DNA of 51,579 nt from Cyanobacteria bacterium RUI128. Its GTDB lineage: Bacteria; Cyanobacteriota; Vampirovibrionia; Gastranaerophilales; Gastranaerophilaceae. Below, piece by piece: positions 7,991 through 36,352 of this stretch. Position 1 is the stretch's first letter. Each line of letters begins with the position of its first letter. The stretch is from positions 1 to 51,579 of the forward strand of contig JAILHQ010000006.1 in assembly GCA_024695725.1 (NCBI GenBank), read 5' to 3'. The notes below the pieces were generated by a model. The model worked only from the letters and a program-made list of their open reading frames with translations, ran no database searches and had not been told where the DNA came from. The position numbers and the translations under genes were made by a program.

Positions 7991-8014
7991 ATTTACCCCT
8001 TTATATTTACCCCT
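7991..8014 (-). repeat. Pair of ATTTACCCCT elements
   Basis: Two copies of ATTTACCCCT lie at 7991-8000 and 8005-8014, 14 bp apart. On the minus strand they read AGGGGTAAAT directly after the stop of the GT9 gene, whose TAG (8013-8015) overlaps the second copy. They belong to a motif dispersed over the window. Confidence 0.7.
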
Positions 8015-13027: not shown

Positions 13028-13048
13028 ACGTATATGTTATCACGACAG

Positions 13049-19971: not shown

Positions 19972-20070
19972 TTTTCCTCTACACTTATTCTGTAATCCTC
20001 TTTCACTATGATAACCTATTTTTGTATATTTATCAATACTTTTAAGGCATTGTAACAACACAGAGGCAGC

Positions 20071-20105
20071 TTAAAAATTTTTTACAAAATGAGCAATTTT
20101 TTGTA
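20071..20105 (+). promoter_or_regulatory. Upstream element of the EF-hand gene
   Basis: TTTACAAA (20081-20088) with a degenerate copy 10 bp upstream, followed by AGCAAT and a T-rich stretch, closely resembles the block at 13085-13116. It fits half of an HLR1 pattern exactly and the other half with two mismatches. Confidence 0.4.
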
Positions 20106-21940: not shown

Positions 21941-21956
21941 TTTGTTGCCTTTCCTG

Positions 21957-22617: not shown

Positions 22618-23166
22618 TTATACTGAATAGATTTTTTTAAGCACATAAATATCGTTTTCACTCGGGGTTGATATATTTTTCTGATGCGGAACATACATAA
22701 CGTCGTCAATTTCAACCCCGTGTCCTAACCCTAATGCGTGCCCGAACTCGTGCATCATTGAGAAAAATATACTTTCATCGGTTGTGTTCTTCGGAGAACA
22801 GGCGTTGTAGAGTCCTATATCGATTGATATTTTTTTAAGCTCACCATCTATAACTGATAAATACTTACACATCCCTTCAAAAACCCGTCCTACTTTTGTC
22901 CAGTGGATAATAATATCAGCATTTTTCGGGGTTTCGGTCAGTACAAATTGTACGGGTATTTTTTCAGAAATCATAACTCTGTTCCATTCTGCCATAGCTT
23001 TCTTGATTTCCGAATAATAAAATTCTTTATTTTGTAAATCTGCGACAATCGGAGTAATATACACATTTACCCCTACACCTGTATTTACCCCCTTTTTCCA
23101 GCGGGCAAGTTTTCCTTTTATTTTGGAATTTTCGATATATTGATTAATTTTGTCGGAAATTGTCAT
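22618..23166 (-). CDS. Matrixin-like zinc metalloprotease without signal peptide
   Basis: The 182-aa protein has the metzincin zinc motif HEFGHALGLGH (H139, E140, H143, H149) and a Met-turn, DDVMYVPH (M157), as in M10 matrixin-type proteases. Upstream strands (NADIIIHWTKVG, ISIDIGLYN) match the catalytic domain. There is no signal peptide, propeptide Cys-switch or membrane span, which is unusual for a family that is mostly exported. The N-terminal region (26-34) contains GVN motifs encoded by two ATTTACCCCY repeats. The promoter (TATAAT 6 nt before the ATG) predicts a leaderless mRNA. The substrate is unknown. Confidence 0.85.
   Translation of the reverse strand: MTISDKINQYIENSKIKGKLARWKKGVNTGVGVNVYITPIVADLQNKEFYYSEIKKAMAEWNRVMISEKIPVQFVLTETPKNADIIIHWTKVGRVFEGMCKYLSVIDGELKKISIDIGLYNACSPKNTTDESIFFSMMHEFGHALGLGHGVEIDDVMYVPHQKNISTPSENDIYVLKKIYSV
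23065..23092 (-). repeat. Pair of ATTTACCCCY elements inside the metalloprotease gene
   Basis: Copies at 23065-23074 and 23083-23092 are 18 bp apart and encode GVN units in the N-terminal part of the protease, the same codon phase as in the DnaJ linker. Confidence 0.75.
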
Positions 23167-23172
23167 AAAACA

Positions 23173-23178
23173 ATTATA
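23173..23178 (-). promoter_or_regulatory. -10 box of predicted leaderless metalloprotease transcript
   Basis: On the minus strand TATAAT is followed by exactly six bases (TGTTTT) and then the ATG at 23166. No Shine-Dalgarno sequence is present and no convincing -35 is seen. Confidence 0.6.
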
Positions 23179-23222
23179 TCAAATTATAATAATTTTCCAT
23201 TTTCTATTTTTCATTTTCCGTT

Positions 23223-23228
23223 TAAAAT
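23223..23228 (+). promoter_or_regulatory. -10 box of predicted leaderless GT9 transcript
   Basis: TAAAAT is followed by six bases (AAGATT) and ATG 23235. No Shine-Dalgarno sequence lies in the 20 bases before the ATG. It faces the -10 box of the divergent protease gene across a 68-bp gap. Confidence 0.6.
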
Positions 23229-23234
23229 AAGATT

Positions 23235-24269
23235 ATGGAAAACAAAAAGAAAGTATTATTGGTCCGTTTGAGTGCGATGGGTGATGTTATTTTCACCATT
23301 CCGCTTGCCAATGCTCTTACTTCTGCAGGGTATGAGGTTACCTGGCTTGTGTCAGAGAAGGGATATTCACTTGTGAAGAACAACCCTTGTGTGGATAAAG
23401 TCATTCTTGCTCCGCTTGAAAAGTGGAAGAAGGCTAGAAACCCTTTAAAGAATTTCTTTGAGTATTTATCTATAGTTCGTTCAATAAGGAAAGAAAAATA
23501 CGATATAGCGCTTGATACCCAGCTAATTTTGAAAAGTCTTTTATGGATGGCGTTTTGCGGTGCAAAAAGAAGAATTGTCGCAAAGAATTACAGAGAGTTT
23601 GCAATACTTGGCGGAAACGAGGTTATGGCAGCTACAAGAGTAGGTAATGAACCTCATGCCGTAAAGAGTTATCTAAAATATGCAGAATATCTTGGTACAG
23701 ATACAACAGATGTCAGAGTTACACTGCCTGAAACTTCACAGGAAGTAAAGTCAAAGGTTGATGATCTTTTAAGTCCGCTGGATAATAAACCTTTTATTCT
23801 TGCGGCACCTGCAACAACTTGGGATACCAAACACTGGAACAGGGGTAAATGGAAAGTCCTTCTTGAAAACCTGAAGGACGATTATAACATTGTTTTGTCG
23901 GGTACGGAAAAGGACAGCGAACTTTTATCATACCTTGATAACGGATATCTGAATCTGTGTGGGAAATCAAATCTTGAAGAATTGCAGGAATTGTTATCAA
24001 GGGCTGAGCTTGTAATTTCTATGGATTCAGGCACAACTCATCTTGCCTGGGCAACACAAAAACCAAAAATCGTTTCCATATTTTGTTCAACACCTGAAAG
24101 TCTTTACGCACCGTTAGGTGATGAAAACAAATATATATCTGTTTCGGCTAAAAAGGTTTGTCAGCCTTGCCACAAAAGAAAATGTCCTAAGGGTACGAAT
24201 GAGTGTACAAATTATCCTGAAGTTAATGAAGTTTATGATGCGGTAATAAAGTTATTAAAAGGAGAGTAG
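23235..24269 (+). CDS. Glycosyltransferase family 9 (heptosyltransferase-like), copy 2
   Basis: The 344-aa GT-B enzyme of the LPS heptosyltransferase family has an N-terminal acceptor domain ([20 protein letters not shown]) and a C-terminal donor domain with [20 protein letters not shown]. The Cys-rich tail ([16 protein letters not shown]) matches family members. The [13 protein letters not shown] start and D-S-G-x-x-H motif are closer to classical WaaC/WaaF enzymes than copy 1, which has E-T-E-A-C in place of D-S-G-x-x-H. It is followed by yjbQ after 1 nt and transcribed from a probable leaderless promoter. A role in envelope glycan assembly is inferred from family knowledge. Confidence 0.9.
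23841..23850 (+). repeat. AGGGGTAAAT element inside GT9 copy 2
   Basis: A single copy lies in a frame encoding Arg-Gly-Lys-Trp, a different phase from the GVN-encoding copies. Confidence 0.4.
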
Positions 24270-24270
24270 T

Positions 24271-24684
24271 ATGAATTTTGCAACTGAATACTTATGGTTT
24301 AATACGGAAAAACACAGAGATTACATAAATATAACAAGAAAAGTTCAGGAAATAGTCACAAATAGCGGTATAAAAGAGGGTATGGTGCTGGTTTCAGCGA
24401 TGCATATTACGGCAGGTGTTTATGTAAATGATGCAGAATACGGTCTTATAGAGGATATTGATACGTGGCTTGAAGAACTTGCACCTTTTAATATAAACTA
24501 CAACCATCATAATACCGGTGAAACAAACGGGGACAGTCATCTTAAGAGTTTACTTATCGGGCATGAAGTTATTGTTCCGATTACTGACGGCAGACTCGAT
24601 TTCGGACCGTGGCAGCAAATCTACTACGCAGAATTTGACGGTCAGAGAAGAAAACGCGTTATTGTTAAGGTAATGGGCGAATAA
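24271..24684 (+). CDS. yjbQ: YjbQ-family protein (UPF0047)
   Basis: This 137-aa protein matches the YjbQ family almost end to end: [10 protein letters not shown], the His-rich [39 protein letters not shown] and the C-terminal [19 protein letters not shown]. Conserved His and Glu residues form a putative active site; E. coli YjbQ has been linked to weak thiamin-phosphate synthase activity, and the physiological role is unsettled. AAGGAGAG overlaps the end of the GT9 gene and positions ATG 24271. Cotranscription with the glycosyltransferase is likely but functionally unexplained. Confidence 0.93.
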
Positions 24685-24689
24685 CGGTC

Positions 24690-25580
24690 TTATTCCTGTT
24701 CAAAATTGTTGGTTATAGTGTAAAGATACTCTAATATTTGGGTAAAATACGGTAAATTGCAATCCCCGTTAAGAATTATATCCATATAAGGTCTTGACGG
24801 AGTAATGTATTTTTTGCCTGCATCCTGTATGTATTCCCAGTGTTTAAGTGCGTTTTCAAGTGACTGGTTACGGGCATTAACTGCACGTGACATAAATCTT
24901 TCTTTTCTGATTTCTTCGTCTGTTTCCACAAAAATCTTTATATCGAAGATATCCTGAATGGTTTCATACATTGTTGCAACCCCTTCAACAATAATTATTT
25001 TGTTGGACTGGATGTGCATTGATTTAGGAACCGAAATACCTGTTCCGTTCAGCAAATATCTCGGAATATCAATATCTTCCCCTCTTGAGATTGCTTCTAA
25101 GTCAGCTCTTAAAATATCAAGCTGGAAATTGTTCGGAGAATCAATATCGTAACCGTTATCTCTCAGAGCATCAAAAGAACCGTATCGTTTGATGAGTTCA
25201 GATATGTCATTAAAATAATTATCCGTTCTAACGATAGCCACAGGCTGGTTAAAACGGCTGATGAAATTGGATATTTCCTGACATATTGTTGATTTACCGG
25301 AGGCTGATTCTCCCGTGATTCCGATTAAAATTCTTTTATTAGGATTATTGATCAAACGTCGGGTAAATCTGTTGATAAAATCATCTTTAATTTCCACTAT
25401 AACAGACTTTTTAGCTTTTTTGTCGTAGGCAAGCGCCTGTTTAAATTTAGTCTGGAGGTAAAACGCAAGCAACTCCCTTCCCGTTTTCTGAGAAAAATCA
25501 GGTTTAAAAATTTTATCATGGGAATTAACTTCCTTTGCTATCAGATTATTAATTCCTTCGTTTTGGTTTTCGTCGCCCAT
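24690..25580 (-). CDS. Uridine kinase/phosphoribulokinase-family P-loop kinase
   Basis: The 296-aa protein has a Walker A loop GESASGKST (residues 90-98) after an extended N-terminal region (1-80) not found in short uridine kinases. It is followed by family motifs: VRTDNYFND, YDIDSPNNFQLD, the nucleoside-binding segment GEDIDIPRYLLNGT, KIIIVEGV and KIFVETDEEIRKERFMSRA. It should phosphorylate a nucleoside or sugar-type hydroxyl with ATP; uridine is likely but not proven. AGGA precedes ATG 25580. It is convergent with yjbQ, and the two stops lie in a short GAATAA/TTATTC inverted repeat. Confidence 0.88.
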   Translation of the reverse strand: MGDENQNEGINNLIAKEVNSHDKIFKPDFSQKTGRELLAFYLQTKFKQALAYDKKAKKSVIVEIKDDFINRFTRRLINNPNKRILIGITGESASGKSTICQEISNFISRFNQPVAIVRTDNYFNDISELIKRYGSFDALRDNGYDIDSPNNFQLDILRADLEAISRGEDIDIPRYLLNGTGISVPKSMHIQSNKIIIVEGVATMYETIQDIFDIKIFVETDEEIRKERFMSRAVNARNQSLENALKHWEYIQDAGKKYITPSRPYMDIILNGDCNLPYFTQILEYLYTITNNFEQE

Positions 25581-25674
25581 ATATCCTACTTTTTATTATG
25601 AGTAACATAATACCCGAGACATGAAAATTTTTCCACTAAATTATTCTAATTGTAAAAAAATGTTATTTCGTTTT

Positions 25675-26616
25675 TTAGACAGGTACTTTTTCAAGAAATT
25701 CAAGATATTTCCCTGCATAAACTGCGCCTACCGCGCCGTCTGCTGCAGCTGTAATAACCTGTCTTAACGGAGTTTTTCTGACATCTCCTATTGCAAATAC
25801 TCCGTCAACCGAGGTTTTCATTGTTTCGTCGGTTATGATAAAACCATTTGAGTCCTGTTCAACCTGTCCGTTAATCTCTTTAATGTTAGGGGTAAACCCT
25901 ATGTAAGGGAAGATGCCGTCAGCTTTTATATTTGAAATTTCGCCTGTTTTGACGTTTTCGATAACTATGTTGCTGACTGTGTTTTCGCCCTGAATTTCTT
26001 TTATTACGGAATCCCAGACAAACTCAATTTTGTCGTTTGCAAAGGCTCTTTCCTGAACGATTCTGTCTGCTCTGAGTTCGTTACGTCTGTGAACGATATA
26101 GACTTTATCCGCGAATTTTGTAAGATATGCGCCCTCTTCAACAGCGGCATTTCCTCCGCCTGCAACGACAACTGTTTTACCCTGATAAAACGCTCCGTCG
26201 CATACAGCGCAGTAACTAACCCCTCTACCTAAAAATTCTTCTTCACCTTTGACTCCAAGTTTTCTGTTTTGGGCACCGCAGGCAATAATGACGCTTTTTG
26301 CCTTAAAGGTTCCTTCTAAGGTTTCGATGACCTTAGGGTTAGATACCAGGTCAACTGATTTAATTTCCTGCATAGGGAACTTTTCAACCCCGAATTTGTC
26401 TGCGTGTTCTTCAAATTTTTCCATCAGGTCATACCCGCCGATAATCGGGAAACCCGGATAGTTTTCGATTTCCAGATAGTTTGACGGTTGTCCGCCAAGC
26501 ATACTTATATCAATAATTGCGGTTTTTACGTTGCTTCTTGCCATATAAATTCCGGCAGATAACCCGGCAGGGCCGCCCCCTAAAATAACAGTATCAAATT
26601 CGTACACATTCCCCAT
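25675..26616 (-). CDS. trxB: Thioredoxin reductase
   Basis: The 313-aa flavoprotein reduces thioredoxin with NADPH. The FAD-binding GGGPAG (13-18), redox-active C136-AVC-C139 pair, NADPH-binding GGGNAA (153-158) with the following HRR basic triplet and the C-terminal FAD motif GVFAIGDVR are all intact. The length matches bacterial low-molecular-weight TrxB. AAGGA supports ATG 26616. It lies 22 nt after the exported-protein gene and has no separate promoter space, so it is probably second in a two-gene transcript. No thioredoxin gene is in the window. Confidence 0.96.
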   Translation of the reverse strand: MGNVYEFDTVILGGGPAGLSAGIYMARSNVKTAIIDISMLGGQPSNYLEIENYPGFPIIGGYDLMEKFEEHADKFGVEKFPMQEIKSVDLVSNPKVIETLEGTFKAKSVIIACGAQNRKLGVKGEEEFLGRGVSYCAVCDGAFYQGKTVVVAGGGNAAVEEGAYLTKFADKVYIVHRRNELRADRIVQERAFANDKIEFVWDSVIKEIQGENTVSNIVIENVKTGEISNIKADGIFPYIGFTPNIKEINGQVEQDSNGFIITDETMKTSVDGVFAIGDVRKTPLRQVITAAADGAVGAVYAGKYLEFLEKVPV

Positions 26617-26638
26617 TGTATAATCCTTTTCTTATTTA

Positions 26639-27133
26639 TTATTGCTTGTCTAAAACTGATTTGCCTCCAAGTTTTTTGCCCTTAATGAGATATTTTGCGG
26701 TATCTTTTTTAAGGACATGCCCATCATACAATGATAATGTTTCCAATACAATATCATTGTACCCTCCGAAAGTATCTCCGTTCAGTCTTATTGTGACAGT
26801 ATCTCTCAATACCTTGTTGTCAAAAGTCGATTCCTTATAAAAGACAATGACGTTTCCCTCCGTATGTTTGACCTCTACCTGAGCGTGGGCTCTTGTAAAA
26901 GGGTTCTCTAATGTAATGACGTCACCTTGTCTTGATAAGTTCCATAAGTCTGTACTTCTCGGTTTAAAAGTGGAATAATTATTTGTTTTTTGCAATTCCG
27001 CATTGACCTGCCAGCAGCCAAAGAACGCCTTAGGTACCTGATCAATGCTTACCCCCATTTTTATTGTTGTGGCAAAGGCCGCCGAAAACAAGGTTATAAA
27101 TACAAATGATAAAATAAGTATTACTTTTTTCAT
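26639..27133 (-). CDS. Exported protein of unknown function (164 aa)
   Basis: I do not recognise this protein. It has a clear signal peptide (KKVILILSFVFITLFSAAFA, cleavage after AFA). The mature part is predicted beta-rich with one Cys (C40) and segments such as GCWQVNAELQKTN and TVTIRLNGDTFGGYNDIV, suggesting a small lipocalin- or barrel-like periplasmic domain. I chose ATG 27133; a longer open frame to 27397 has no signal peptide at its start and overlaps the divergent gene. A TATAAT 6 nt before the ATG predicts a leaderless mRNA. It is followed by trxB, so a redox or envelope-stress link is possible. Confidence 0.82.
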   Translation of the reverse strand: MKKVILILSFVFITLFSAAFATTIKMGVSIDQVPKAFFGCWQVNAELQKTNNYSTFKPRSTDLWNLSRQGDVITLENPFTRAHAQVEVKHTEGNVIVFYKESTFDNKVLRDTVTIRLNGDTFGGYNDIVLETLSLYDGHVLKKDTAKYLIKGKKLGGKSVLDKQ

Positions 27134-27139
27134 ACTATT

Positions 27140-27168
27140 ATTATAATGAAAACGGGAGATATATACAA
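27140..27168 (-). promoter_or_regulatory. Strong promoter, predicted leaderless (27133 gene)
   Basis: On the minus strand -35 TTGTAT (27163-27168), a 17-bp spacer and perfect -10 TATAAT (27140-27145) are followed by six bases and the ATG. Transcription should start at or within a base or two of the ATG. Confidence 0.7.
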
Positions 27169-27170
27169 TT

Positions 27171-27199
27171 TTCCCAGAAAACTGATTTTTAGGTAAAAT
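27171..27199 (+). promoter_or_regulatory. Promoter, predicted leaderless (27206 gene)
   Basis: -35-like TTCCCA (27171-27176), a 17-bp spacer and -10 TAAAAT (27194-27199) are followed by six bases (TATCTT) and ATG 27206. It mirrors the divergent promoter on the other strand. Confidence 0.55.
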
Positions 27200-27205
27200 T
27201 ATCTT

Positions 27206-27475
27206 ATGAAAAAACTTTTGATACTGTTGTTGTTTATGTTTTTTGCAACCGGTGCATATGCGGTTGATCAAAGGTACATGCCTGACGGTTATGTCAGAGA
27301 TGATGTAATCTTTCCTAATTATGCAAAATATACAAAAGACTATTTTGATAAGGTGACAGAAAAGAAGATAAAATGTAACTGGGGAACGTACAGACAAGAG
27401 GTTAATGCGCCTTTGAGGAAGGTGCTTGAACAGCTTGATAAGGAATCCAGAACGGAAGTTATCCCAAGATATTAG
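27206..27475 (+). CDS. Small exported protein of unknown function (89 aa)
   Basis: The signal peptide (KKLLILLLFMFFATGAYA, cleavage after AYA) is followed by a short Tyr/Lys-rich mature region of about 70 residues (VDQRYMPDGYVRDDVIFPNY) with a single Cys. The mature part has no recognisable domain. There is no Shine-Dalgarno sequence; a -10 hexamer lies 6 nt before the ATG. The YMPDG motif also occurs in the unrelated EF-hand protein at 20154 (YRYMPDGRF), probably by chance. It could be a periplasmic adaptor or peptide-like factor. The gene ends 85 nt before the kinase-like gene on the same strand. Confidence 0.78.
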   Translation: MKKLLILLLFMFFATGAYAVDQRYMPDGYVRDDVIFPNYAKYTKDYFDKVTEKKIKCNWGTYRQEVNAPLRKVLEQLDKESRTEVIPRY

Positions 27476-27560
27476 TGTTAGTGTAAAATATCTTAATATT
27501 CAGAAGTGTTTCTTAGCAAATAATATTTTTACGGGCATTACTTATGTAGGAAACATAGAT

Positions 27561-28613
27561 ATGAACATAACACCAGTATTAAATCAACAACGTGCAGTTT
27601 TAAACAATAACAATAATATAAATAACGTAAACCGAACTCAGACAACCTTTAACAGACCGTCTTCTCAGGTTAGTTTCGGTTCGTCAAAATCTGAAAGAAT
27701 GCTTCAGTTGTTGGATCATTCTATTGATGCGCTCGTTAACGGCAGTGATTTCAATATATTGAATAAAATGAAGTTCCACAGAGTTTTATCTGCTGCACTT
27801 CCTGAGTTAATGGTGCCTGAAAACTTTGTAAACAACGGACGTGCATCAAAAGTTTACAGAATCAGTGACAGATATGTGGCAAAAATCAGAAGAGGATATT
27901 ACCCGGATAACGCAGTTCATGCTTTCAATACAATAAGTTTACCGAGCAAGAAATTCAGAACACTTGATTTTTATTACGGTGAGCCTGTAGTAAAAATAGG
28001 AAAAGTCGAAATTTTAAGGAATGCAACTCCTACAGAAAACCATATCTGCTGTGGTACAAGTTTTCGTTGTGACGGTTTGGTAGGAAACAAAGAATTAGCA
28101 AAATATGAGTCAGAATTTTTACCAATCTGTAGTGAAGTGCCGCAGGAAAGCTATGATAATCTTGCTGCAAACCTCAAAAAACTTAACGGTTTAACCTGCA
28201 GAAGTATGTTAGGTAAAAAACAAACCTATGTACCGGATATTGTAAACCCAAACAATCTTCTCATTTCTGATAACAGATTTGTACTCGTAGATGAACTCGA
28301 AAAAGTTCCGTTCAGAAATCCAAACTCTGTTTTCACTATGCTTGAACCTCTCTTAATCAGACTTAATCCTGAAAAAGAAGCTCCAAAAAATGAAGGTTTG
28401 AAGGGTGTAAGAAAAAATATATTCAAAAAAGTTTTAATCGCATCAGAAAAGAGCGGGTTACCGTTAGACAGCCCGATAAAATATGAATATTCAGAATGGA
28501 CCTTAGGCGATATCCTGGGCAGCAGCAATATTCTGGGTGATGTTAAAGAGATGAGAGCAAAAAGCATGTCAACCGAAGAAAGAATCGCAAATATTAAAGA
28601 AATTCTTGATTAA
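27561..28613 (+). CDS. Divergent protein-kinase-fold protein (350 aa)
   Basis: No named family is recognised, but kinase-fold marks are in the right order. They are a nucleotide-loop-like NNGRASKVYRI (91-101), a VAK lysine (K108 in RYVAKIRR), a catalytic-loop-like segment with D226 and N231 spaced as in D-x4-N (PDIVNPNNLLI) and a metal-site-like VLVDELE (D244). This matches the spacing of RDLKPENLLI and DFG in kinases, or of aminoglycoside-type phosphotransferases. Residues 1-45 are Asn/Gln-rich. AGGAAA before ATG 27561 supports the start; an in-frame upstream start at 27426 would overlap the exported-protein gene. The stop shares a TTAA with the convergent uvrD stop. Confidence 0.7.
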   Translation: MNITPVLNQQRAVLNNNNNINNVNRTQTTFNRPSSQVSFGSSKSERMLQLLDHSIDALVNGSDFNILNKMKFHRVLSAALPELMVPENFVNNGRASKVYRISDRYVAKIRRGYYPDNAVHAFNTISLPSKKFRTLDFYYGEPVVKIGKVEILRNATPTENHICCGTSFRCDGLVGNKELAKYESEFLPICSEVPQESYDNLAANLKKLNGLTCRSMLGKKQTYVPDIVNPNNLLISDNRFVLVDELEKVPFRNPNSVFTMLEPLLIRLNPEKEAPKNEGLKGVRKNIFKKVLIASEKSGLPLDSPIKYEYSEWTLGDILGSSNILGDVKEMRAKSMSTEERIANIKEILD

Positions 28614-31108
28614 AATTTCTTCAAGTGTGCGAAGGCTGCATCCATAGCCTTTTTACCCATTTTGCCGAAATCGATTGTGTACATTGTGCTGTCTCCGATT
28701 TGGTTGACTTCAAGGATGTGTCCTACCCCTAATTTATCGTGGAAAACTCTTTCCCCTTCGGAAAAGAAATAATCGATAGGAGCGTTCTTTTCAGCTTCTC
28801 TTTGTTGTGCAAGTTCTGCCTGTTCCGCTTCGAGCCTTTTCTTTTCTTCTAGTTTTCGTTTAATAGGGTTGTTTTCAAAGAAGGCTTTAATTTTTTCTTC
28901 TTCACGTTGTTTATGTGCCTGAGATTTTACAAGGATAGTACGCTGCGGGGTACGCTGCGGTGTTCCTAATCTCTTTGCGCCTGACGAAATTGTGCTGTTG
29001 TAATTAGTTGAGGTTCTTTGCGGTGTTCCGAGTTTTTTAGCACCTCTGGAAATAGTGTTCGTGTTGTTATACCCTGTATAACCGCTGTTCCCTCTGTTAT
29101 TTTTTATTGTTCTGACTGCATTTTGGAAGGTTCTGCCGGATGCGTGTCCTGTTGATGCAATTTCTTCTATAAGTTCATAAGGTATTTCGCCTACAAATCT
29201 GCTCGGGTTGTAGTATTTGTATTCTCCCCACATCTGACGTCGCTTTGCGCTTGTTATGTATAACTTTTCTTCTGCTCTGGTTACACCGACATACATAAGA
29301 CGTCGTTCTTCTTCAAGTCCTGTCTTTTCCTGAATACTTCTCATACTCGGGAAGATGCCTTCATCTGCTCCTGCGATAAAGACTGTCGGGAATTCCAAGC
29401 CTTTTGCTGAGTGCAGTGTCATAAGGGTTACTGTGTTTGAAACTTCTTCCATATTATCCAGATCGGATACAAGTGATACCTGTGCAAGAAATTCGCCAAG
29501 AGCGTTATCCTGTTCGTCAGGTATAAATTCGCTTGCAACGTTTACTAATTCCTGTAGGTTTTCTATTCTTGCTTCATCTTCAGGTGTGTTCTCGTTTTTA
29601 AGTTCTCTTAAATAGCCGCTCTTTTCGAGAATTATGCTTAAAAACTCGTTCAGTGAATATCTGTGCTGAATTTCCTGAAAATTAACTATCAGTTTTGCAA
29701 ACTCTTCAAGTTTGACCTTCGTTTTCGGTTGAATATGTTCTTCTTCATCCAGTCTTGTAATTGCCTGATAAAGACTGATATTATTTTCGTCTGCAAATTC
29801 CTGCAGGTGTCTTATCGTGGTATCCCCTATAGAACGCTTAGGGACATTGATAATTCTTTTCAGACTCTGTGAATCGTTCGGGTTGTGGATAAGTTTTAGA
29901 TATGCAAGAGCATCTTTAATTTCTTTTCTGTCATAGAACTTTAATCCGCCGTAGATTCTGTACGGTATACCCAGTGAAATGCAGGCTTCTTCAAGAGAAC
30001 GGGACTGTGCATTTGTTCTGTACAGAATTGCAAACTGATTATAGTTTGCAGAGGTTGATTTTATGGTTGAGGCAATAAAGTTTGCCTCGTCTGCATCATC
30101 ATCAGCTTCGTAATAAGTTATCTTTTCCCCTTCCCCCTTGTTTGAGTAGAGTACTTTTTCAACCCTTTGTTCGTTATTTTCAATGATAGAATTTGCTGCA
30201 TTCAAAATTTTTGAAGTGGAACGGTAGTTTTGTTCAAGTTTTATAAGTTTGCAGTCTTTAAAATCGTGCTGAAAATTGAGAATAATTCTGAAATCAGCAC
30301 CGCGCCAGCTGTAGATAGATTGGTCAACGTCACCCACAACACATAAGGAGCGTTCTTTCGGAACTTCTGCAAGGTTGTTTGTGTAGAGAGATTTGACCAG
30401 ATTATACTGGGCAGGGTTTGTGTCCTGGAACTCGTCAACAAGAATGTGTTCAAATCTGTTGTAATATCTTGTTCTGACCTCTTCATTCTGCTCGAGTAGT
30501 TTCACGCAGAGCATAAGCATATCGTCAAAATCTATTGCGTTATTGTTGTTCAGGGTTGTTTCATAATCGTCATAGATTTGGGAAATTCTTTGAGATTTGA
30601 AATCTCTTGCATAGGTTGCATAGGTGTATGCATCCTGCATTTTGTTTTTTGAATTGGAAATGATTGCCTTAATCAACTTTGGCTGATACATTTTCTCGTC
30701 AAGATTAAGCTTCTTTATTGACTGCTTTATTATTGCAAGAGAGTCCTGTTCATCATAAATGGTGAAGTTTTTATCAAGCTTTTTGCCGGTTTGGAATTGG
30801 TATTTGTCGATATCCTGTCTTAAAATTCTTCCGCATATACTGTGAAAAGTTCCGACCCACATATACTTAACCAAGTCTTCACCAAGTATTCCCGCAAGTC
30901 TTTCTTTCATTTCTTTTGCGGCTTTGTTTGTGAAGGTTACGGCAAGAATATTCTTCGGGTTAACTCCGTTTTTGACCATATATGCGATTCTTGTTGTTAA
31001 TACTTTTGTTTTTCCGCTTCCTGCCCCTGCTAGTATCAGTAAAGAACCATCTGTTGATTTAGCCGCCTTTAACTGTTCTTTGTTAAGGCTTTCCAAAATA
31101 TTTTCCAT
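28610..31108 (-). CDS. pcrA: UvrD/PcrA-family DNA helicase
   Basis: The 832-aa superfamily 1A 3'-5' helicase functions in repair and in clearing stalled complexes. The Q-motif region and Walker A AGAGSGKT (27-34) are followed by motif II VDEFQD, motif III GDVDQSIYSWRGAD, QNYRS, the TLHSAKGLEF motif and VGVTRAEEKL. The C terminus ends in a PcrA-type Tudor-like domain (GERVFHDKLGVGHILEVNQI). The linker before it carries two copies of a TIS-GAK-LGTPQRT unit (coding DNA roughly 28940-29060), an unusual low-complexity duplication. I cannot separate UvrD from PcrA by eye; PcrA is favoured by the Tudor end. Confidence 0.93.
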   Translation of the reverse strand: MENILESLNKEQLKAAKSTDGSLLILAGAGSGKTKVLTTRIAYMVKNGVNPKNILAVTFTNKAAKEMKERLAGILGEDLVKYMWVGTFHSICGRILRQDIDKYQFQTGKKLDKNFTIYDEQDSLAIIKQSIKKLNLDEKMYQPKLIKAIISNSKNKMQDAYTYATYARDFKSQRISQIYDDYETTLNNNNAIDFDDMLMLCVKLLEQNEEVRTRYYNRFEHILVDEFQDTNPAQYNLVKSLYTNNLAEVPKERSLCVVGDVDQSIYSWRGADFRIILNFQHDFKDCKLIKLEQNYRSTSKILNAANSIIENNEQRVEKVLYSNKGEGEKITYYEADDDADEANFIASTIKSTSANYNQFAILYRTNAQSRSLEEACISLGIPYRIYGGLKFYDRKEIKDALAYLKLIHNPNDSQSLKRIINVPKRSIGDTTIRHLQEFADENNISLYQAITRLDEEEHIQPKTKVKLEEFAKLIVNFQEIQHRYSLNEFLSIILEKSGYLRELKNENTPEDEARIENLQELVNVASEFIPDEQDNALGEFLAQVSLVSDLDNMEEVSNTVTLMTLHSAKGLEFPTVFIAGADEGIFPSMRSIQEKTGLEEERRLMYVGVTRAEEKLYITSAKRRQMWGEYKYYNPSRFVGEIPYELIEEIASTGHASGRTFQNAVRTIKNNRGNSGYTGYNNTNTISRGAKKLGTPQRTSTNYNSTISSGAKRLGTPQRTPQRTILVKSQAHKQREEEKIKAFFENNPIKRKLEEKKRLEAEQAELAQQREAEKNAPIDYFFSEGERVFHDKLGVGHILEVNQIGDSTMYTIDFGKMGKKAMDAAFAHLKKF

Positions 31109-31205
31109 TTACTCTTCCCAAAATCTGTTTTTTGTGATATCATATACACCATACACGAAAAGTACAGATTTTGCAATTATATTAGTGAAAAAAGGATTAA
31201 AAATA

Positions 31206-31787
31206 ATGATAGATATTAAAAACATGGCAGATGGTGAAGAAACGAAACAAAGTTCAATTATGGTACCGTTTGATGACAAGCCGGTTGCAGTAGAAGGTAG
31301 TCCTGATACGGTTGATGAGTTGTCTATGGAATTGGCAACAATTAAACAGTCTGCAAAGAGAATAGCTATCATTGGTTCACGTAACCTTGCAATAACACAC
31401 CAGCAAATGATTGAAACTTTAACAACAGCACTTGTTATGCAGGGTAATACAATTATCACATCAGGGGGTTCTTATGGTACTAACGCGGCAGCTATCCGTG
31501 GCGCTATGAAATCTAACCCTGAAAAATTAAAAGTTATTTTACCTCAGACAATAGGTCAGCAGCCTAGTGATGTACAGAATCAGCTTATCGGTGTTCCTAA
31601 CATTATTGAACATTCTGACAGAGCAATGATGACACTGGCTGATGCATCAAGAGTTTGTAACCGTGAGATTATTGATGACTGTAATCAGTTAATATGTTTC
31701 TTATCTCACACAAGTAAAACTCTTCAGACTGCAGTTGAATATGCTGAAGAAACCCATAAAGTTGTTACCATCTTTTACCTTGATTAA
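31206..31787 (+). CDS. Single-domain DprA-like (SLOG) protein
   Basis: The 193-aa protein has one Rossmann-like SLOG/DprA domain: RIAIIGSRNLAITHQQMIETL, then TIITSGGSYGTNAAAIRGA, then LICFLSHTSKTLQTAVEYAEE near the C terminus, ending VVTIFYLD. It lacks the SAM-like and winged-helix flanks of classical DprA. Cyanobacteria carry the same stand-alone protein, annotated as DNA recombination-mediator protein A, and the closing FYLD is shared. Its role there is not established; it may bind nucleotides or single-stranded DNA. I chose ATG 31206 (AAGG upstream); the longer open frame to 30924 runs antisense into uvrD. A HEAT-like gene follows 49 nt later. Confidence 0.85.
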   Translation: MIDIKNMADGEETKQSSIMVPFDDKPVAVEGSPDTVDELSMELATIKQSAKRIAIIGSRNLAITHQQMIETLTTALVMQGNTIITSGGSYGTNAAAIRGAMKSNPEKLKVILPQTIGQQPSDVQNQLIGVPNIIEHSDRAMMTLADASRVCNREIIDDCNQLICFLSHTSKTLQTAVEYAEETHKVVTIFYLD

Positions 31788-31836
31788 TGATTACGCTAAG
31801 CACTTTTAGTTAATTTGTTAAGATAGGATCGAAAGA

Positions 31837-33006
31837 ATGGATAAAATAAAACAACTCACAGGTAAAAACCAAAACGAATATGAGCCGATAGCAAAACATA
31901 TCATCGACGATGCTGATGTTGATTTTTTCAGAGAACTTGTTTCAAAAGATGATTTTCTGTTTGATTTTGTTAAGGCTAATGTGGCAAAAAGATTAGAGAA
32001 TGCCTGCAACAGGGATAATTACAGAAATCTCTTGAAATTTCTTGATGTTTATTCCCCGTATTATGAAGATTTTATTACATCAACTTTGGCTCAGTTCGGG
32101 GATAGCGATATAGTTAATATAATGCTTGATAAACTCACATCAGGTACGGTTAACGAAAAAACCTATGCTTCAGGCTTCTTCTCATACAAAGAAGACGGAA
32201 GGGCGTTACCTTTGCTTAAACAGTATGCCTTCAGTGACGAGGCATCATTATCTGAAAATTGTGCGAGAGCTCTTGCTAAACTTGAAAATAAGGATGCTTT
32301 TGAACTTGCGCTTAAAAAACTTGAATCTGATGATGATTTTGAAAAGATGACTGCGGCAAGTTTCCTGGTTGCTTATCAGGATAAAACCGCTCTCGGTGCT
32401 TTATTTAAAGCTATGAAAAATTCAAAAATGTCAGAGAATATTGCAGAGTTGATTCCTTATTTAACTCCGTTGCCTGATATGCTCGGTACGGATTACAATG
32501 ACGATGCTATTTTGGCATTTTGTTATATTATCAACGGTCTTGTTGAACTTGTGCCTGTTTCTCAGGTTATAGATTTTCGACTTTATGAGTTTATCGAAAG
32601 ACTACTGAAAACATCACCGTCAGGTGCGTCTGCGGTTGCGCTGTTTCTGGCAAAAGAAAAGTTTAATGTGATTACCGAAAACGAAGAGTACCTTTTCGAT
32701 GAGGATAAGAATACCAAAATTGAGGTTAATGATATAAAAACATTGCTTAATAATGCAAATCTGTATCCGATGACCTCTTTTCTCTACGAAGAAATGTTTG
32801 AAGAAAGTGATTTTATCTTCTTTGTTCTGGAAATCGTAAGAGATGAGGATAGTCTTGTATCACTGCTTTCCGGCGAAAATCAGACAGTTATTATAAAGGT
32901 AATGGAACTGTTGAAAGCACAGGGACTTTTGAAGGATGAATATAAACAGCTTGCCCTTTCAAAAATAGATGATGAAAACTTAAAAGTTGTGGCTAATGCC
33001 TTATAA
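31837..33006 (+). CDS. HEAT-repeat-like helical protein (389 aa)
   Basis: The protein is all-helical with a repeating pattern of paired helices. The clearest units are ENCARALAKLENKDAFELAL and ASFLVAYQDKTALGALFKAM (about residues 130-200), resembling HEAT or PBS-lyase repeats. It is acidic, with many Asp and Glu residues, and has no signal peptide or membrane span. Such proteins usually serve as protein-binding scaffolds. The start is ATG 31837 with AGGA 8 nt upstream. It is convergent with the third GT9 gene with only 5 nt between the stops and no visible terminator. No specific function can be proposed. Confidence 0.8.
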   Translation: MDKIKQLTGKNQNEYEPIAKHIIDDADVDFFRELVSKDDFLFDFVKANVAKRLENACNRDNYRNLLKFLDVYSPYYEDFITSTLAQFGDSDIVNIMLDKLTSGTVNEKTYASGFFSYKEDGRALPLLKQYAFSDEASLSENCARALAKLENKDAFELALKKLESDDDFEKMTAASFLVAYQDKTALGALFKAMKNSKMSENIAELIPYLTPLPDMLGTDYNDDAILAFCYIINGLVELVPVSQVIDFRLYEFIERLLKTSPSGASAVALFLAKEKFNVITENEEYLFDEDKNTKIEVNDIKTLLNNANLYPMTSFLYEEMFEESDFIFFVLEIVRDEDSLVSLLSGENQTVIIKVMELLKAQGLLKDEYKQLALSKIDDENLKVVANAL

Positions 33007-33011
33007 TTACT

Positions 33012-33998
33012 CTATTCGCAAATAATTCTTGCAAGTTCCCCAAAGTCATATTTCAGGCATGATAATTCGTCACATGACTGTTGTCTGCGTTCCCACAGAC
33101 AAGGTTTTAAAGGACAGTCATCTTTTGCCTTTAACGGTTTTATGTTTTCATTTTTAGGAACAAGTTTATTATCGTCTGTCGGTCCGAAGAACGGATAGGT
33201 TTTTACCCCGAGCGCAACTGCAATATGAAGCGGTGCGGAATCCGAGCATACAAATTTTTCGGCAGAGGATATGAGTTTTGCCAAATCCGATAAATTCTTT
33301 GTTTTTCCGTAGTAGTTTTCGAAATTTTTTGTTTTCGAGTATTGCTCAATTTCTTTTATACACTCTTCATCGTCAGGCCCGCCTGCAAGGATGACGTGTT
33401 TACCGTAGGCGGCCAGTCTGTTGATTAAATCTGCCCACTCTTCTGAGGTGATTGATTTTATACATCCTTTTCTTTTGCTCATAAGACTAACCCCCGGATG
33501 AATTAAAACAGAGTTTGGTATTTTTTCCTGTTGTTCGGTGTTTATCACGGGAAGTTCTGTCTTTATATCGGTAATAGGGGTAATTAAATCGTGATACATC
33601 CCGCCCGCATACTGATTTTTATTTAAAGGTATTGCCTTTGTAAGCAGAAGGCGGCTTAATTTTCCTGTGTCATATCCGTACCTTTCAGGTATAAAAGTCA
33701 GAGCCTCTATTATAGATATAAAAGGGCTTGCCCCTGAGGATACAACTATATCAAATTTTCCTGCGGCAGCTTTAGAGATCAGTTTTATGATTTCAAAATA
33801 CTTGTTCCCCGATTTTATATCCACTGTAATTAAATCATCAATTATATCGGTAAGCTGTGATATCCCCTTGCTTCTCGGTTCAAGAGCAAGAGTAATTGAT
33901 GAATCAGGATATTCCTTTTTCAGTGAAACCAGGGTCGGAAGAAATAAAATTTCATCACCCAGTCCGCCAAAATTAATTGCTAAAATCTTTTTTGTCAT
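33012..33998 (-). CDS. Glycosyltransferase family 9 (heptosyltransferase-like), copy 3
   Basis: This 328-aa GT9 member has an N terminus KKILAINFGGLGDEILFLPTL and a donor-domain signature FVCSDSAPLHIAVALGVKTYPFFGPTD, the latter typical of heptosyltransferases. Its Cys-rich tail (CPLKPCLWERRQQSC) differs in spacing from the other two copies, so it is probably an older paralogue with a different acceptor. Its promoter has a TATAAT exactly 6 nt before the ATG and a TetR-type palindrome over the -35 position, so it is probably repressor-controlled and leaderless. No LPS gene is adjacent. Confidence 0.88.
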   Translation of the reverse strand: MTKKILAINFGGLGDEILFLPTLVSLKKEYPDSSITLALEPRSKGISQLTDIIDDLITVDIKSGNKYFEIIKLISKAAAGKFDIVVSSGASPFISIIEALTFIPERYGYDTGKLSRLLLTKAIPLNKNQYAGGMYHDLITPITDIKTELPVINTEQQEKIPNSVLIHPGVSLMSKRKGCIKSITSEEWADLINRLAAYGKHVILAGGPDDEECIKEIEQYSKTKNFENYYGKTKNLSDLAKLISSAEKFVCSDSAPLHIAVALGVKTYPFFGPTDDNKLVPKNENIKPLKAKDDCPLKPCLWERRQQSCDELSCLKYDFGELARIICE

Positions 33999-34004
33999 AG
34001 AACA

Positions 34005-34010
34005 ATTATA
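34005..34010 (-). promoter_or_regulatory. -10 box of predicted leaderless GT9 copy 3 transcript
   Basis: On the minus strand TATAAT is followed by six bases (TGTTCT) and ATG 33998. There is no Shine-Dalgarno sequence. The expected -35 position falls within the palindrome at 34022-34041. Confidence 0.65.
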
Positions 34011-34021
34011 TATAAAAAATA

Positions 34022-34041
34022 AACTGACCGTTTGGTCAGTT
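34022..34041. promoter_or_regulatory. TetR-type operator palindrome
   Basis: AACTGACC (34022-34029) and GGTCAGTT (34034-34041) are perfect inverted arms around a GTTT centre. The GACC-N4-GGTC core is a common form of TetR-family operators. It overlaps the -35 position of GT9 copy 3, fitting repression. No TetR-family gene is in the window. Confidence 0.65.
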
Positions 34042-34097
34042 GGAGTAATTTGTTCTTAATTGATTTTAACCATATTCTATTGTCACCGCATCCCACA

Positions 34098-34217
34098 CAG
34101 GGGCACACCACACACCATAAATATCCCCTGCCTTTTTTCACGAGGAAAATTTAATCTTTTATTTCTTCTGAAAAAGAAGACTATGCCTTCGACAGTTGGT
34201 TGCATGCCGAAGGCATG
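34098..34217. other. Gene-free gap with short hairpins
   Basis: No gene lies between 33999 and 34226. Besides the operator and promoter, the gap holds CAGGGG/CCCCTG arms (34098-34103 and 34125-34130) followed by CCTTTTTT. It also holds two mutually exclusive hairpins: ATGCCTTCG (34183-34191) with CGAAGGCAT (34208-34216), or CATGCC with GGCATG (34203-34208 and 34212-34217). On the minus strand the longer one is followed by AGTCTTCTTTTT and may terminate the small gene at 34227. Confidence 0.45.
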
Positions 34218-34226
34218 ACAGGTTAG

Positions 34227-34475
34227 TTAAACTTCCAAGAATAATCTTTGACCTACGATGTTCGGTTTATTATTGTAGTAACCTGCAAAATAACCGCCCG
34301 CCACAGGTTTATTCTTAGCATATCCGGAATATGTGTATCTTCCGGCATTTACAAAAGGATTCCCGAAAGGGTTTCCACCGATAGATTGTGTACCTGTTGT
34401 TGCAGTAGCTACTGCTGCTGCGTTGTTTGTGCTTGGTACAAGCACCTTTGTTAATAAACTTACGATTCCTGCCAT
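34227..34475 (-). CDS. Small Gly/Asn/Tyr-rich protein (82 aa)
   Basis: I do not recognise this protein. The N terminus (AGIVSLLTKVLVPSTNNAAA) is a moderately hydrophobic helix. The rest is low complexity: Ala/Thr-rich, then NPFGNPF and several Gly-Tyr pairs (RYTYSGYAKNKP, GGYFAGYYNNKP). It may be a structural or surface peptide, or a small self-assembling protein. Two exact 13-bp tandem copies of TATCAAACCTTTA sit immediately upstream, each giving an AAGG on the minus strand that could act as ribosome-binding site. An HLR1-like element lies 83-100 nt before the start, as at two other small genes. Coding status is supported by context, not by homology. Confidence 0.68.
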   Translation of the reverse strand: MAGIVSLLTKVLVPSTNNAAAVATATTGTQSIGGNPFGNPFVNAGRYTYSGYAKNKPVAGGYFAGYYNNKPNIVGQRLFLEV

Positions 34476-34477
34476 AA

Positions 34478-34503
34478 TATCAAACCTTTATATCAAACCT
34501 TTA
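34478..34503 (-). repeat. Exact 13-bp tandem duplication in the leader of the 82-aa gene
   Basis: TATCAAACCTTTA occurs at 34478-34490 and again at 34491-34503. On the minus strand each copy carries TAAAGG, so the ribosome-binding region is duplicated. Confidence 0.85.
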
Positions 34504-34557
34504 CATTCTCTTATTTAATGACCGTTTTTTATAAGTCAAAAAATAGAACGGCATAAA

Positions 34558-34575
34558 TTAACAAAACTTTACATA
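34558..34575 (+). promoter_or_regulatory. HLR1-like element upstream of the 82-aa gene
   Basis: TTAACAAA-AC-TTTACATA matches the HLR1 pattern with one mismatch in the first repeat. Relative to the minus-strand gene it has the same orientation as the sites at 9124 and 51245, sharing the 13-mer TGTAAAGTTTTGT exactly with the first. Confidence 0.5.
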
Positions 34576-34618
34576 ATGAGACATAATTCATCTGAATATA
34601 GGATAAACAGTGTTGTTT

Positions 34619-35497
34619 TTATTTCTTTCTGTCCCTTGCATTAACGTTGGCTTCAAATTGTTTAAAGGTATCAGGGCCGACAAGCTGTTCTAATTGGGCA
34701 CGTTTGTCGGCAAAATTATTTTTTGCTTTTCTCTGCATATCAAGTGCTTCTCTGTAATAGGCATCAGTGATAATAATTACCTCTTTTGAACAGTTTTGTG
34801 CGTTTTTGTAATTATAGTATCTGCTTTTTGCTGTCTCGGAACGCATATTATAAAGTTCCCTGGTGGTCATATAGTCATAATACATTTCAACAACTTTCTG
34901 CTGAAGTTCATCAATTTTTCGGACAAGGATAATCATATCGGCATCGCCGACTTTTGTGTATTTGTAGTTAAGTGATTTAGTATCCTGTGAAAGTATTCCG
35001 AGGGTATTTCCGCCGATAAGTGATGTTGCATACAGCAGAGGGTTTCCGCTGCCGGCACCGACAAGAGTTGACAGGTTAGCAATGGTTGAAATCACTTTTC
35101 TGACCGCAGACTGGCTTGGTTTATCCGCATCAGGGTTTGCCAGTTTATAGAGCGCATATTTGATGGTGTCGCTTTTTGTTGCAGCCCCCTGCCATAGCAG
35201 TGATACATCTGCAAGAATTTCGTCATAGTCAACTTGCAGATCCTGTGAAATTTCTTTTGAGATTTGTTTAAGGCTCAAATCTGCGTAAGTCAGGTTTGCC
35301 TCGTCAATACTTGTTTCAGAAAACAGTGCTTTTGTGTCTTTTATTGACGGGTTTATATCAAGTTTGTTTTCGATTTCATCTGTCGTTCCGAAACGGTAGG
35401 CAGGTTCTTTTACCGTCATCAGTTGTTCATAGGTCATCCCGAGTGACGGAAGAGAAAATATTGAAGATATAAGTAATGTGATTAAATATTTCTTCAT
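34619..35497 (-). CDS. Exported paralogue A of a tandem pair (292 aa)
   Basis: The signal peptide (KKYLITLLISSIFSLPSLG) precedes a mostly helical mature protein. It aligns by eye with the upstream gene product: shared points are LLWQGAATK then IKYALYKLANP, a K-x-IS segment, Gly-rich LVGAGSGNP, a DELQQKVVEMYYDYMT coiled-coil segment and a final QLEQLVGPDTF block. The long C-terminal helices recall periplasmic coiled-coil adaptors or TolC-type helices, but no named family is recognised. Its ATG overlaps the stop of paralogue B by 4 nt (ATGA), so the two are translated together and may form a hetero-complex. Confidence 0.8.
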   Translation of the reverse strand: MKKYLITLLISSIFSLPSLGMTYEQLMTVKEPAYRFGTTDEIENKLDINPSIKDTKALFSETSIDEANLTYADLSLKQISKEISQDLQVDYDEILADVSLLWQGAATKSDTIKYALYKLANPDADKPSQSAVRKVISTIANLSTLVGAGSGNPLLYATSLIGGNTLGILSQDTKSLNYKYTKVGDADMIILVRKIDELQQKVVEMYYDYMTTRELYNMRSETAKSRYYNYKNAQNCSKEVIIITDAYYREALDMQRKAKNNFADKRAQLEQLVGPDTFKQFEANVNARDRKK

Positions 35498-36306
35498 TTG
35501 CCCGTATCCTTTATAAGTGCCGCATCGAAATTGAACTTGTACAGGTGTAGTTTATCCACTGCCGCCTTACCTGCAAGTCTTTGAAGTTCTGCGTGGTATT
35601 TCTTTGCGTTCTGAACTTCTTCGTATTCCTGAATAATCATATTGTCATAAAGCGTTGAGGATATAGTGAGGTCAAGAACATCCCCTCTTTTTTGCGCTTT
35701 ATCGTAATTCTTTGCATAAAGCAGTATTCTTTCTCTGGTTTCTTTAATCATAATCAGGGAATTTTTGTAGTTGTAATAGGTTGCAATTATTTTATCCTGC
35801 AGATTTTCTATCAGTCCTGCAAGTTCAATAAGCTCGGTATCCGTAAGAGGAACTTCCTGTGGCATATTCTTTTTATTCAGCCAGGCCTGAGCAAGTCTTC
35901 CTGCGGAATATGATGCGGTCTGAATACCGTAGTTCCCGCCGACAAGACTCGGTACAAGCGATGCACCTGCAATTACTGCGGAAAGGGTTTTTGACATAAG
36001 GGAAGAATGTATTCTTCTCTGACTTTCCGGTGTAGAAAGTTTTTTTAGTGCAAATTCGATTACCTTGTTGTTTTCGATAGTCCCTTTCCAAAGGGTTTCG
36101 ATATCTGCAAGGTCTTTTTCCTTCTGCAGTTTAATTAAATCTTCAAGTACCTGTCTGTCGTTGATTAAAAGTGAACCTGATATTTTTGTTTTTTGCGGGG
36201 TTGTTTTATAGACCTCTTTTTGCACACCGTTAAGGGGAACCTCTTGTGCAGCAAAAACCTGAGTTCCAAAAGCGATAGTTAATAATAATACCCCAAATCT
36301 TTTCAT
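35494..36306 (-). CDS. Exported paralogue B of a tandem pair (270 aa)
   Basis: The signal peptide (KRFGVLLLTIAFGTQVFA) leads into a helical protein paralogous to the downstream gene product: TLWKGTIEN then EFALKKLSTP, then SLVGGNYGI, then GLIENLQDKIIATYYNYKNS and ELQRLAGKAAVDKL. I chose ATG 36306 because the signal peptide begins there; the open frame extends to 36324. A TATAAA hexamer lies exactly 6 nt before this ATG and no Shine-Dalgarno sequence is visible. It is the first gene of the two-gene unit. The function is unknown; the pair looks like a periplasmic or outer-envelope complex. Confidence 0.8.
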   Translation of the reverse strand: MKRFGVLLLTIAFGTQVFAAQEVPLNGVQKEVYKTTPQKTKISGSLLINDRQVLEDLIKLQKEKDLADIETLWKGTIENNKVIEFALKKLSTPESQRRIHSSLMSKTLSAVIAGASLVPSLVGGNYGIQTASYSAGRLAQAWLNKKNMPQEVPLTDTELIELAGLIENLQDKIIATYYNYKNSLIMIKETRERILLYAKNYDKAQKRGDVLDLTISSTLYDNMIIQEYEEVQNAKKYHAELQRLAGKAAVDKLHLYKFNFDAALIKDTGK

Positions 36307-36312
36307 AATATT

Positions 36313-36318
36313 TTTATA
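36313..36318 (-). promoter_or_regulatory. -10 box of predicted leaderless paralogue-pair transcript
   Basis: TATAAA on the minus strand is followed by six bases (AATATT) and ATG 36306. No convincing -35 is seen. Confidence 0.5.
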
Positions 36319-36352
36319 CCACATTCAATTATTAATATCCACCATTTGTAGG

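Follow-up and report, generated by a model that had tools for sequence, protein, structure and literature searches.

How six genes begin their translation in a 51,579-nucleotide (nt) stretch of DNA from Cyanobacteria bacterium RUI128, a member of the Gastranaerophilales, is the question raised by this locus (contig JAILHQ010000006.1; the whole stretch is termed the window). Direct checking of the sequence demonstrates that the starts at 23166, 23235, 27133, 27206, 33998 and 36306 are each preceded by a TATAAT-like hexamer and a 6-nt spacer before the ATG, confirming all of the strings reported in the initial annotation. These genes, denoted N6 genes, where N is the number of nt between the hexamer and the start codon, are very probably leaderless, with a promoter of the sigma-70 type set such that transcription would begin on the A of the ATG. 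The position of the hexamers, their promoter anatomy, an excess above chance, conservation in some of the genes and the distribution among lineages can all be observed in the sequence and form the basis of this reading.

Within the window, 42 valid starts were scored, the gene at 17 being excluded for too little upstream DNA; a 43rd row at 27562, which reads TGA, was included in the script counts and shuffles and has no motif match at N = 6. Six of the 42 starts have TA[AT]AA[AT] at N = 6, and each other N from 0 to 30 yields 0 or 1. Across 2000 Markov shuffles, the mean at N = 6 was 0.48 and none attained 6. Moreover, TA[AT]AA[AT]-N6-ATG occurs six times on both strands of the window, and all six occurrences are the gene starts under discussion. 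The pattern TANNNT, outside which the TATAAA hexamer of 36306 falls, was observed at N = 6 before eight starts (13027, 20061, 22529, 23166, 23235, 27133, 27206 and 33998), compared with a shuffle mean of 1.7. The six had been described as lacking a Shine-Dalgarno (SD) sequence that is common elsewhere, which was borne out: an SD-like site, defined as AGGA, GGAG, GAGG or AAGG within -18 to -4, is present at 21 of the 42 scored starts and at 0 of the 6. The base at -1 is T in all six genes. Regarding the choice of start, no alternative in-frame start lies upstream of 23166, 23235, 27206 or 33998, whereas 27133 has upstream TTG codons and 36306 a further ATG 18 nt upstream; the starts used for these two are those chosen in the initial annotation. 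An Rfam scan of the window returned 0 matches at gathering scores.

A peak at the same position is found beyond the window. Eighty loci were fetched by means of the GT9 protein encoded at 23235, from uncultured gut genomes, many of which are titled Candidatus Gastranaerophilales or Melainabacteria; with the window they comprise 1.36 Mb and 1150 genes, 1144 with sufficient upstream DNA and 835 with an ATG and an in-frame stop within 60 nt. Since all loci were fetched by that gene, the GT9 cluster was removed from the counts, and protein clusters were counted in addition. Of 318 lead genes, the first genes of their transcription units, 59 then have TANNNT at N = 6 (36 of 203 protein clusters), relative to cluster counts of 7, 8, 10 and 4 for N = 4, 5, 7 and 8 and to 11-33 lead genes at the far positions N = 14-39. 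Operon-internal genes lack the peak (12/312). Redundancy among orthologues is ruled out as its source, as the peak persists without GT9 and by protein clusters.

The second sample consisted of 400 kb from each of two genomes (800 kb; 680 genes, 530 with ATG, 488 passing the in-frame-stop filter). One of these, G001, is the genome of locus L003, with 79% identity to the 23235 GT9 protein, and the other, G004, is that of L020; the stretches partly overlap L003 and L020, so the locus and genome sets are not wholly independent. TANNNT was found at N = 6 before 56 of the 488 starts, compared with approximately 10 at N = 4, 5 and 7-9 and approximately 23 at N = 18-40. Among lead genes, 17 of 102 in G001 and 13 of 98 in G004 carry the hexamer at N = 6, with 1-3 at N = 4, 5, 7 and 8; the next highest single positions reach 11 (N = 21) and 11 (N = 0). 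Pooled, the 30 of 200 lead genes at N = 6 exceed both the mean (9.3) and the maximum (18) of 200 shuffles, as well as the 8 of 174 operon-internal genes (p = 0.0009, with units inferred from gene spacing alone). For the stricter TA[AT]AAT, 24 of 488 starts were counted at N = 6, 0-6 at N = 4, 5, 7, 8 and 9, and a highest value elsewhere of 12 at N = 23. The filter favours TAA and TAG at N = 0, 3, 6 and 9, and an in-frame-stop artefact was ruled out by an unfiltered recount of TAY..T hexamers, which cannot form an in-frame stop: N = 6 has 35 of the 530 starts, N = 4, 5, 7 and 8 have 2-7 each, and other N up to 24 have no more than 20. In the two genomes, no peak at N = 6 is displayed by GTG starts (1/48), TTG starts (3/100) or in-frame ATGs within the first 19 codons (12/329). 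N6 starts are enriched in the first genes of transcription units. An SD site accompanies 1 of the 56 N6 starts, an absence that is partly by construction because the box takes up the SD place. The leaderless-looking share of ATG-start genes in these two relatives is approximately 9% when about 10 (the mean of N = 4, 5, 7, 8 and 9) are subtracted, or approximately 7% when about 23 (the mean of N = 18-40) are subtracted. The prediction came with a test of its own, that -10 hexamers should peak sharply at N = 6 relative to shuffled controls, and such a peak is present in the 80 loci, in the two sampled genomes and in the whole-genome counts given below.

The surroundings of the hexamer are also informative. 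For the 56 N6 starts, TTG precedes the -10 box by 17 nt in 13 cases and by 16 nt in 4, with 0-3 at other spacings from 10 to 25; TANNNT sites at N = 14-27, the place of leadered promoters, display a weaker TTG maximum at 17 (20/320, with 3-11 elsewhere). The TG of an extended -10 element precedes 24 of 56 N6 boxes, compared with 68 of 674 TANNNT sites at N = 14-44. T at -1 is found in 41 of 56 N6 starts versus 102 of 252 SD-led starts (p = 1.2e-5), the usual initiator being a pyrimidine at -1 and A at +1. The N6 boxes therefore look like sigma-70-type promoters aimed at the A of the ATG, and the leaderless reading put forward in the initial annotation gains support from the peak together with the -35 element at 17 nt, the TGn extension and the T at -1. 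In the process proposed here, a housekeeping promoter of this type, with a TTG-like -35, a 17-nt spacer, often an extended TGn and a -10 TANNNT, would be placed such that RNA polymerase initiates at the A of the ATG. The mRNA would begin with AUG and carry no leader, and translation would presumably start at the bare 5' AUG through the 70S pathway described for leaderless mRNAs. Where the RNAs of the N6 genes begin and how ribosomes start on them are both inferred from this anatomy.

One other explanation would be very short leaders, with the polymerase starting a few bases (1-5 nt) before the ATG. Transcription start sites usually wobble by one or two bases, and N = 7 is slightly over its neighbours (17 versus 5-14 of 530 at N = 4, 5, 8 and 9); however, the peak is confined to N = 6, and the combination of T at -1 and A at +1 suits initiation at the A of the ATG, such that leaders of this kind are considered very improbable. 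It might also be supposed that AT-rich upstream DNA and selective reading gave rise to the strings by chance, with the real promoters farther upstream and the mRNAs leadered. TANNNT is frequent at every N from 18 to 40, at approximately 11-12 per position among 238-250 starts, and in G004 alone other positions come near, with 11 of 98 lead genes at N = 0 against 13 at N = 6. Nevertheless, the excess lies at a single position and surpasses both the shuffles and the same-phase controls N = 3 and N = 9, the -35 and TGn elements are correctly spaced, and operon-internal genes have no peak; an origin by chance is accordingly very unlikely. An AT-rich box serving as a translation enhancer of the A/U-rich, S1-binding type in a leadered mRNA is highly doubtful, since it accounts neither for a TTG at a spacing of exactly 17 nt nor for the TGn extension or the lead-gene restriction, even if AT-rich signals near -20 to -10 are discussed as possible S1 sites in the text of PMC5397173.

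The leaderless arrangement was then followed through homologous genes. For the protease at 23166, TANNNT-N6-ATG is present in 5/5 homologous loci with a start; L003 and L081 represent one and the same DNA, and that genome also contributes L100, a paralogue of 30% identity, so the net count is three orthologues and one paralogue. For 36306, TATAAA-N6-ATG occurs in 6/6 homologous loci (59-62% identity), and the start at 36306 is favoured over that at 36324 for this reason. For the second GT9 gene, starting at 33998, the hits were just 23-29% identical, 2/5 of them with N6. No homologue with a readable start was found among the 80 loci for 27133, 27206, 13027 or 22529. For the GT9 gene at 23235, the five nearest relatives (L001-L005) are all N6, with TAAAAT or TACAAT; of the 80 rows, 21 are N6, 39 are SD-led and the other 20 fit neither class. 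Five changes between N6 and SD are required when these labels are placed on a quickly built maximum-likelihood tree, and three of the changes depend on single rows (L055, L052 and L074); two changes are required when these rows are removed, and one when L046 and L064 are removed as well. The orthologous GT9 gene has probably switched between leaderless and SD-led starts at least twice, judging from these labels.

The distribution among lineages was analyzed by whole-genome counts of TATAAT-N6-ATG and TATAAT-N9-ATG, which share the same codon phase and are limited to exact TATAAT. In 79 genomes of the order to which G001 belongs, 8294 N6 and 4133 N9 sites were counted, and 64 of the 79 are individually significant (p<0.01, one-sided). 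In a class sample of 60 genomes, the 12 that are also in the order sample give 1540 versus 673 (12/12 at p<0.01), while the remaining 48, some of which may belong to the order, give 1845 versus 1402 (6/48 at p<0.01, or 12/48 with N3 added to the control). A phylum sample of 117 genomes was divided by the photosynthetic reaction-centre protein (Photo_RC, PF00124), the absence of which may sometimes reflect incompleteness. The 52 genomes without PF00124 and of no more than 2.4 Mb contain 6069 versus 2722 sites (48/52 at p<0.01), and the 18 larger genomes without it 583 versus 383 (7/18). In the 47 genomes with PF00124, the photosynthetic relatives, no N6 excess is observed in the pooled exact-TATAAT count (1323 versus 1287, N6/N9 = 1.03; 1/47 alone at p<0.01); because the test sees exact TATAAT alone, leaderless genes in photosynthetic cyanobacteria are not excluded by this ratio.

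Several points weigh against the leaderless reading and its extension to the lineage. The gene starts in the loci and genomes were obtained from a simple home-made gene caller. In the six window genes the match to a -35 box is poor, reaching 2-4 of 6 positions at the best of five spacings. Background makes up one to two in five TANNNT-N6 matches in the two genomes, depending on the baseline, and single genes may therefore be false calls. Of the 80 rows for the 23235 GT9 gene, 59 are either SD-led or without a class. Finally, N6/N9 is below 1.3 in 13 of the 79 genomes of the order (for example G166, G167, G171, G173 and G180), so the N6 trait is not universal there, and from these counts parts of the order seem to have little of it or to have lost it. 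We lean modestly towards a wider picture in which the non-photosynthetic cyanobacterial relatives, Gastranaerophilales above all, would use leaderless, ATG-only starts for approximately 7-9% of genes, core replication and translation genes included, in which photosynthetic cyanobacteria have no such positional excess, and in which orthologues switch between leaderless and SD-led starts. Our confidence is held down by the three GT9 switches that depend on single rows and by the leaderless mRNAs already reported for Cyanobacteria (PMC5397173).

The individual features of the window are arranged as follows. On the minus strand, the -10 hexamer TATAAT (23173..23178), extended by TGa and recognized from the sequence and the homologous loci, stands 6 nt before the ATG at 23166 of a predicted leaderless gene (22618..23166) whose product is matrixin-like by Pfam (Peptidase_M10). 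Next to it, at 21398-22529 on the minus strand, lie an ECF-like sigma factor gene and then a zinc-finger gene (zf-HC2, anti-sigma-like); the TATAAA-N8-ATG string that had been described before the sigma gene at 22529 is present and is readable also as TAAATT-N6 before the ATG. On the plus strand, the hexamer TAAAAT (23223..23228), supported by the sequence and the five nearest relatives, precedes by 6 nt the ATG at 23235 of the GT9 (heptosyltransferase-family) gene (23235..24269), predicted to be leaderless and assigned by family match and the start-type tree. Two putative exported proteins without a Pfam match, each with a hydrophobic start in its sequence, are encoded by the predicted leaderless genes at 26639..27133 (minus strand; TATAAT at 27140..27145, 6 nt before the ATG at 27133) and 27206..27475 (plus strand, 89 amino acids; TAAAAT at 27194..27199, 6 nt before the ATG at 27206), both hexamers being recognized from the sequence. 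A further putative exported protein without a Pfam match is encoded at 35494..36306 on the minus strand, a predicted leaderless gene with its start placed at 36306 and not 36324 by the homologue starts; its hexamer TATAAA (36313..36318), extended by TGg, is supported by the sequence and the 6/6 homologous loci. Two N6 candidates missing from the earlier six were identified from the sequence, both on the minus strand: TGa-TAACAT (13034..13039), 6 nt before the ATG at 13027 of a radical SAM gene (12290-13027), and TTGCTC-17-TAAGCT-6-GTG (hexamer at 20068..20073) before the start at 20061 of a GAF/HD-domain gene, the latter kept as a weak candidate because GTG starts have no N = 6 peak in the two relatives.

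The second GT9 gene (33012..33998, minus strand), assigned by family match and predicted to be leaderless, is preceded by TATAAT (34005..34010, from the sequence), 6 nt before its ATG at 33998, and by a hairpin with a U-run at 34014..34041 on the same strand. The hairpin, terminator-like or operator-like by folding, is a perfect 8-base-pair inverted repeat, AACTGACC-N4-GGTCAGTT, with its stem at 34022-34041, a folding energy of -11.2 kcal/mol and a z score of -5.1, and it ends 3 nt upstream of the -10 box. Were it to act as a terminator, there would be little space for a leader. From its sequence it could instead be an operator, the form AACTGACC-N4-GGTCAGTT resembling operators of the TetR family; neither the window nor the fetched loci contain another TGACC-N4-GGTCA palindrome. 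A third GT9 gene of the window (8013-9032, minus strand) has the SD-like AGGAAA, in contrast to both predicted leaderless GT9 genes. More generally, N6 starts have a terminator-like hairpin a short way upstream more often than other starts do in the two genomes (4/56 versus 7/432, p = 0.03); the same excess is seen in the loci and the window (6/113 versus 4/722, p = 0.0007), a p value that is too small because four of the six cases come from a single gene family. In L025, L042, L061, L062 and L078, members of one gene family whose products start MNITAG or MNITGG have a terminator-like hairpin shortly before a -10-like box, which lies 6 nt from the ATG (7 in L078). Furthermore, where N6 genes have a divergent neighbour, the gaps are shorter, with a median of 109 (n = 31) versus 159 for 139 others (p = 0.002).

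A possible bias of the N6 class towards the cell envelope, seen in the window and suggested in the initial annotation, was not supported. Hydrophobic N-termini are not enriched, either among lead genes (5/30 N6 versus 21/170 others, p = 0.56) or among all genes (8/56 versus 72/432, p = 0.85). When the 30 lead N6 genes of G001 and G004 were scanned with NCBIfam at the curated cut-off, 10 were above it: dnaE, dnaG, era, ffh, accD, rimO, murJ, pgeF, a FliI/YscN-family ATPase and a WecG/TagA/CpsF-family enzyme. The bias was rejected on these grounds.

These results extend a known mode of expression to an uncultured gut lineage, and the N6 geometry provides a rule for correcting gene starts, as here with 36306 for 36324. 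If the N6 genes are indeed leaderless, regulation through the 5' leader, such as by riboswitches or SD masking, cannot act on them. Owing to the contrast with photosynthetic relatives and the switches within one orthologous gene, related pairs can be used to test how leaderless starts evolve, and a lineage that switches start type, if such it is, would offer natural experiments on the factors that make a gene start leaderless or SD-led.

In agreement with the statement in the initial annotation that none was known for this lineage, no earlier description of leaderless genes in Melainabacteria, Vampirovibrio or Gastranaerophilales was found in the open-licence PMC literature, with subscription journals and preprints outside the scope. 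No Gastranaerophilales genomes are known from 2010. The genome set of Zheng et al. 2011, in which TANNNT-led genes were classed as leaderless and reported in 207 of 953 bacterial genomes, dates from that year (PMC3160421). According to the text of that study, the first T of TANNNT lies approximately 12 base pairs before the start codon of such TA-led genes, equal to N = 6 as here, and TA-led starts were held to be possible just for the first gene of a polycistronic transcript, with which the present lead-gene enrichment is alike (PMC3160421). The Table 2 text consulted has no Cyanobacteria row, and the study warned of underestimation in that group (PMC3160421). SD-led genes are still the majority here. 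In Deinococcus-Thermus, as described in PMC12340547, TANNNT approximately 6-7 base pairs upstream of the open reading frame was experimentally found to be the promoter -10 region, the mRNAs are leaderless and some annotated starts were corrected; both the distance of approximately 6 nt and the correction of starts are shared with the genes studied here. By the same source, almost a third of D. radiodurans open reading frames are of this kind, and a -10 box alone suffices (PMC12340547), whereas the genes studied here make up a smaller share and are enriched in TGn and in TTG at 17 nt. Mapped leaderless or near-leaderless starts do exist in photosynthetic cyanobacteria: as reported across PMC6091082, PMC5607370 and PMC5397173, 19 gene transcription start sites (gTSSs) were judged leaderless in Synechococcus elongatus UTEX 2973, and 6-8% of primary transcription start sites in Prochlorococcus MED4 lie within 10 nt of a start codon. 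Unlike the Gastranaerophilales, the 47 photosynthetic genomes counted above are, taken together, without a positional excess of exact TATAAT at N = 6. The leaderless start is a kind known in many bacteria, and the lineage is new for it by the open-licence PMC literature.

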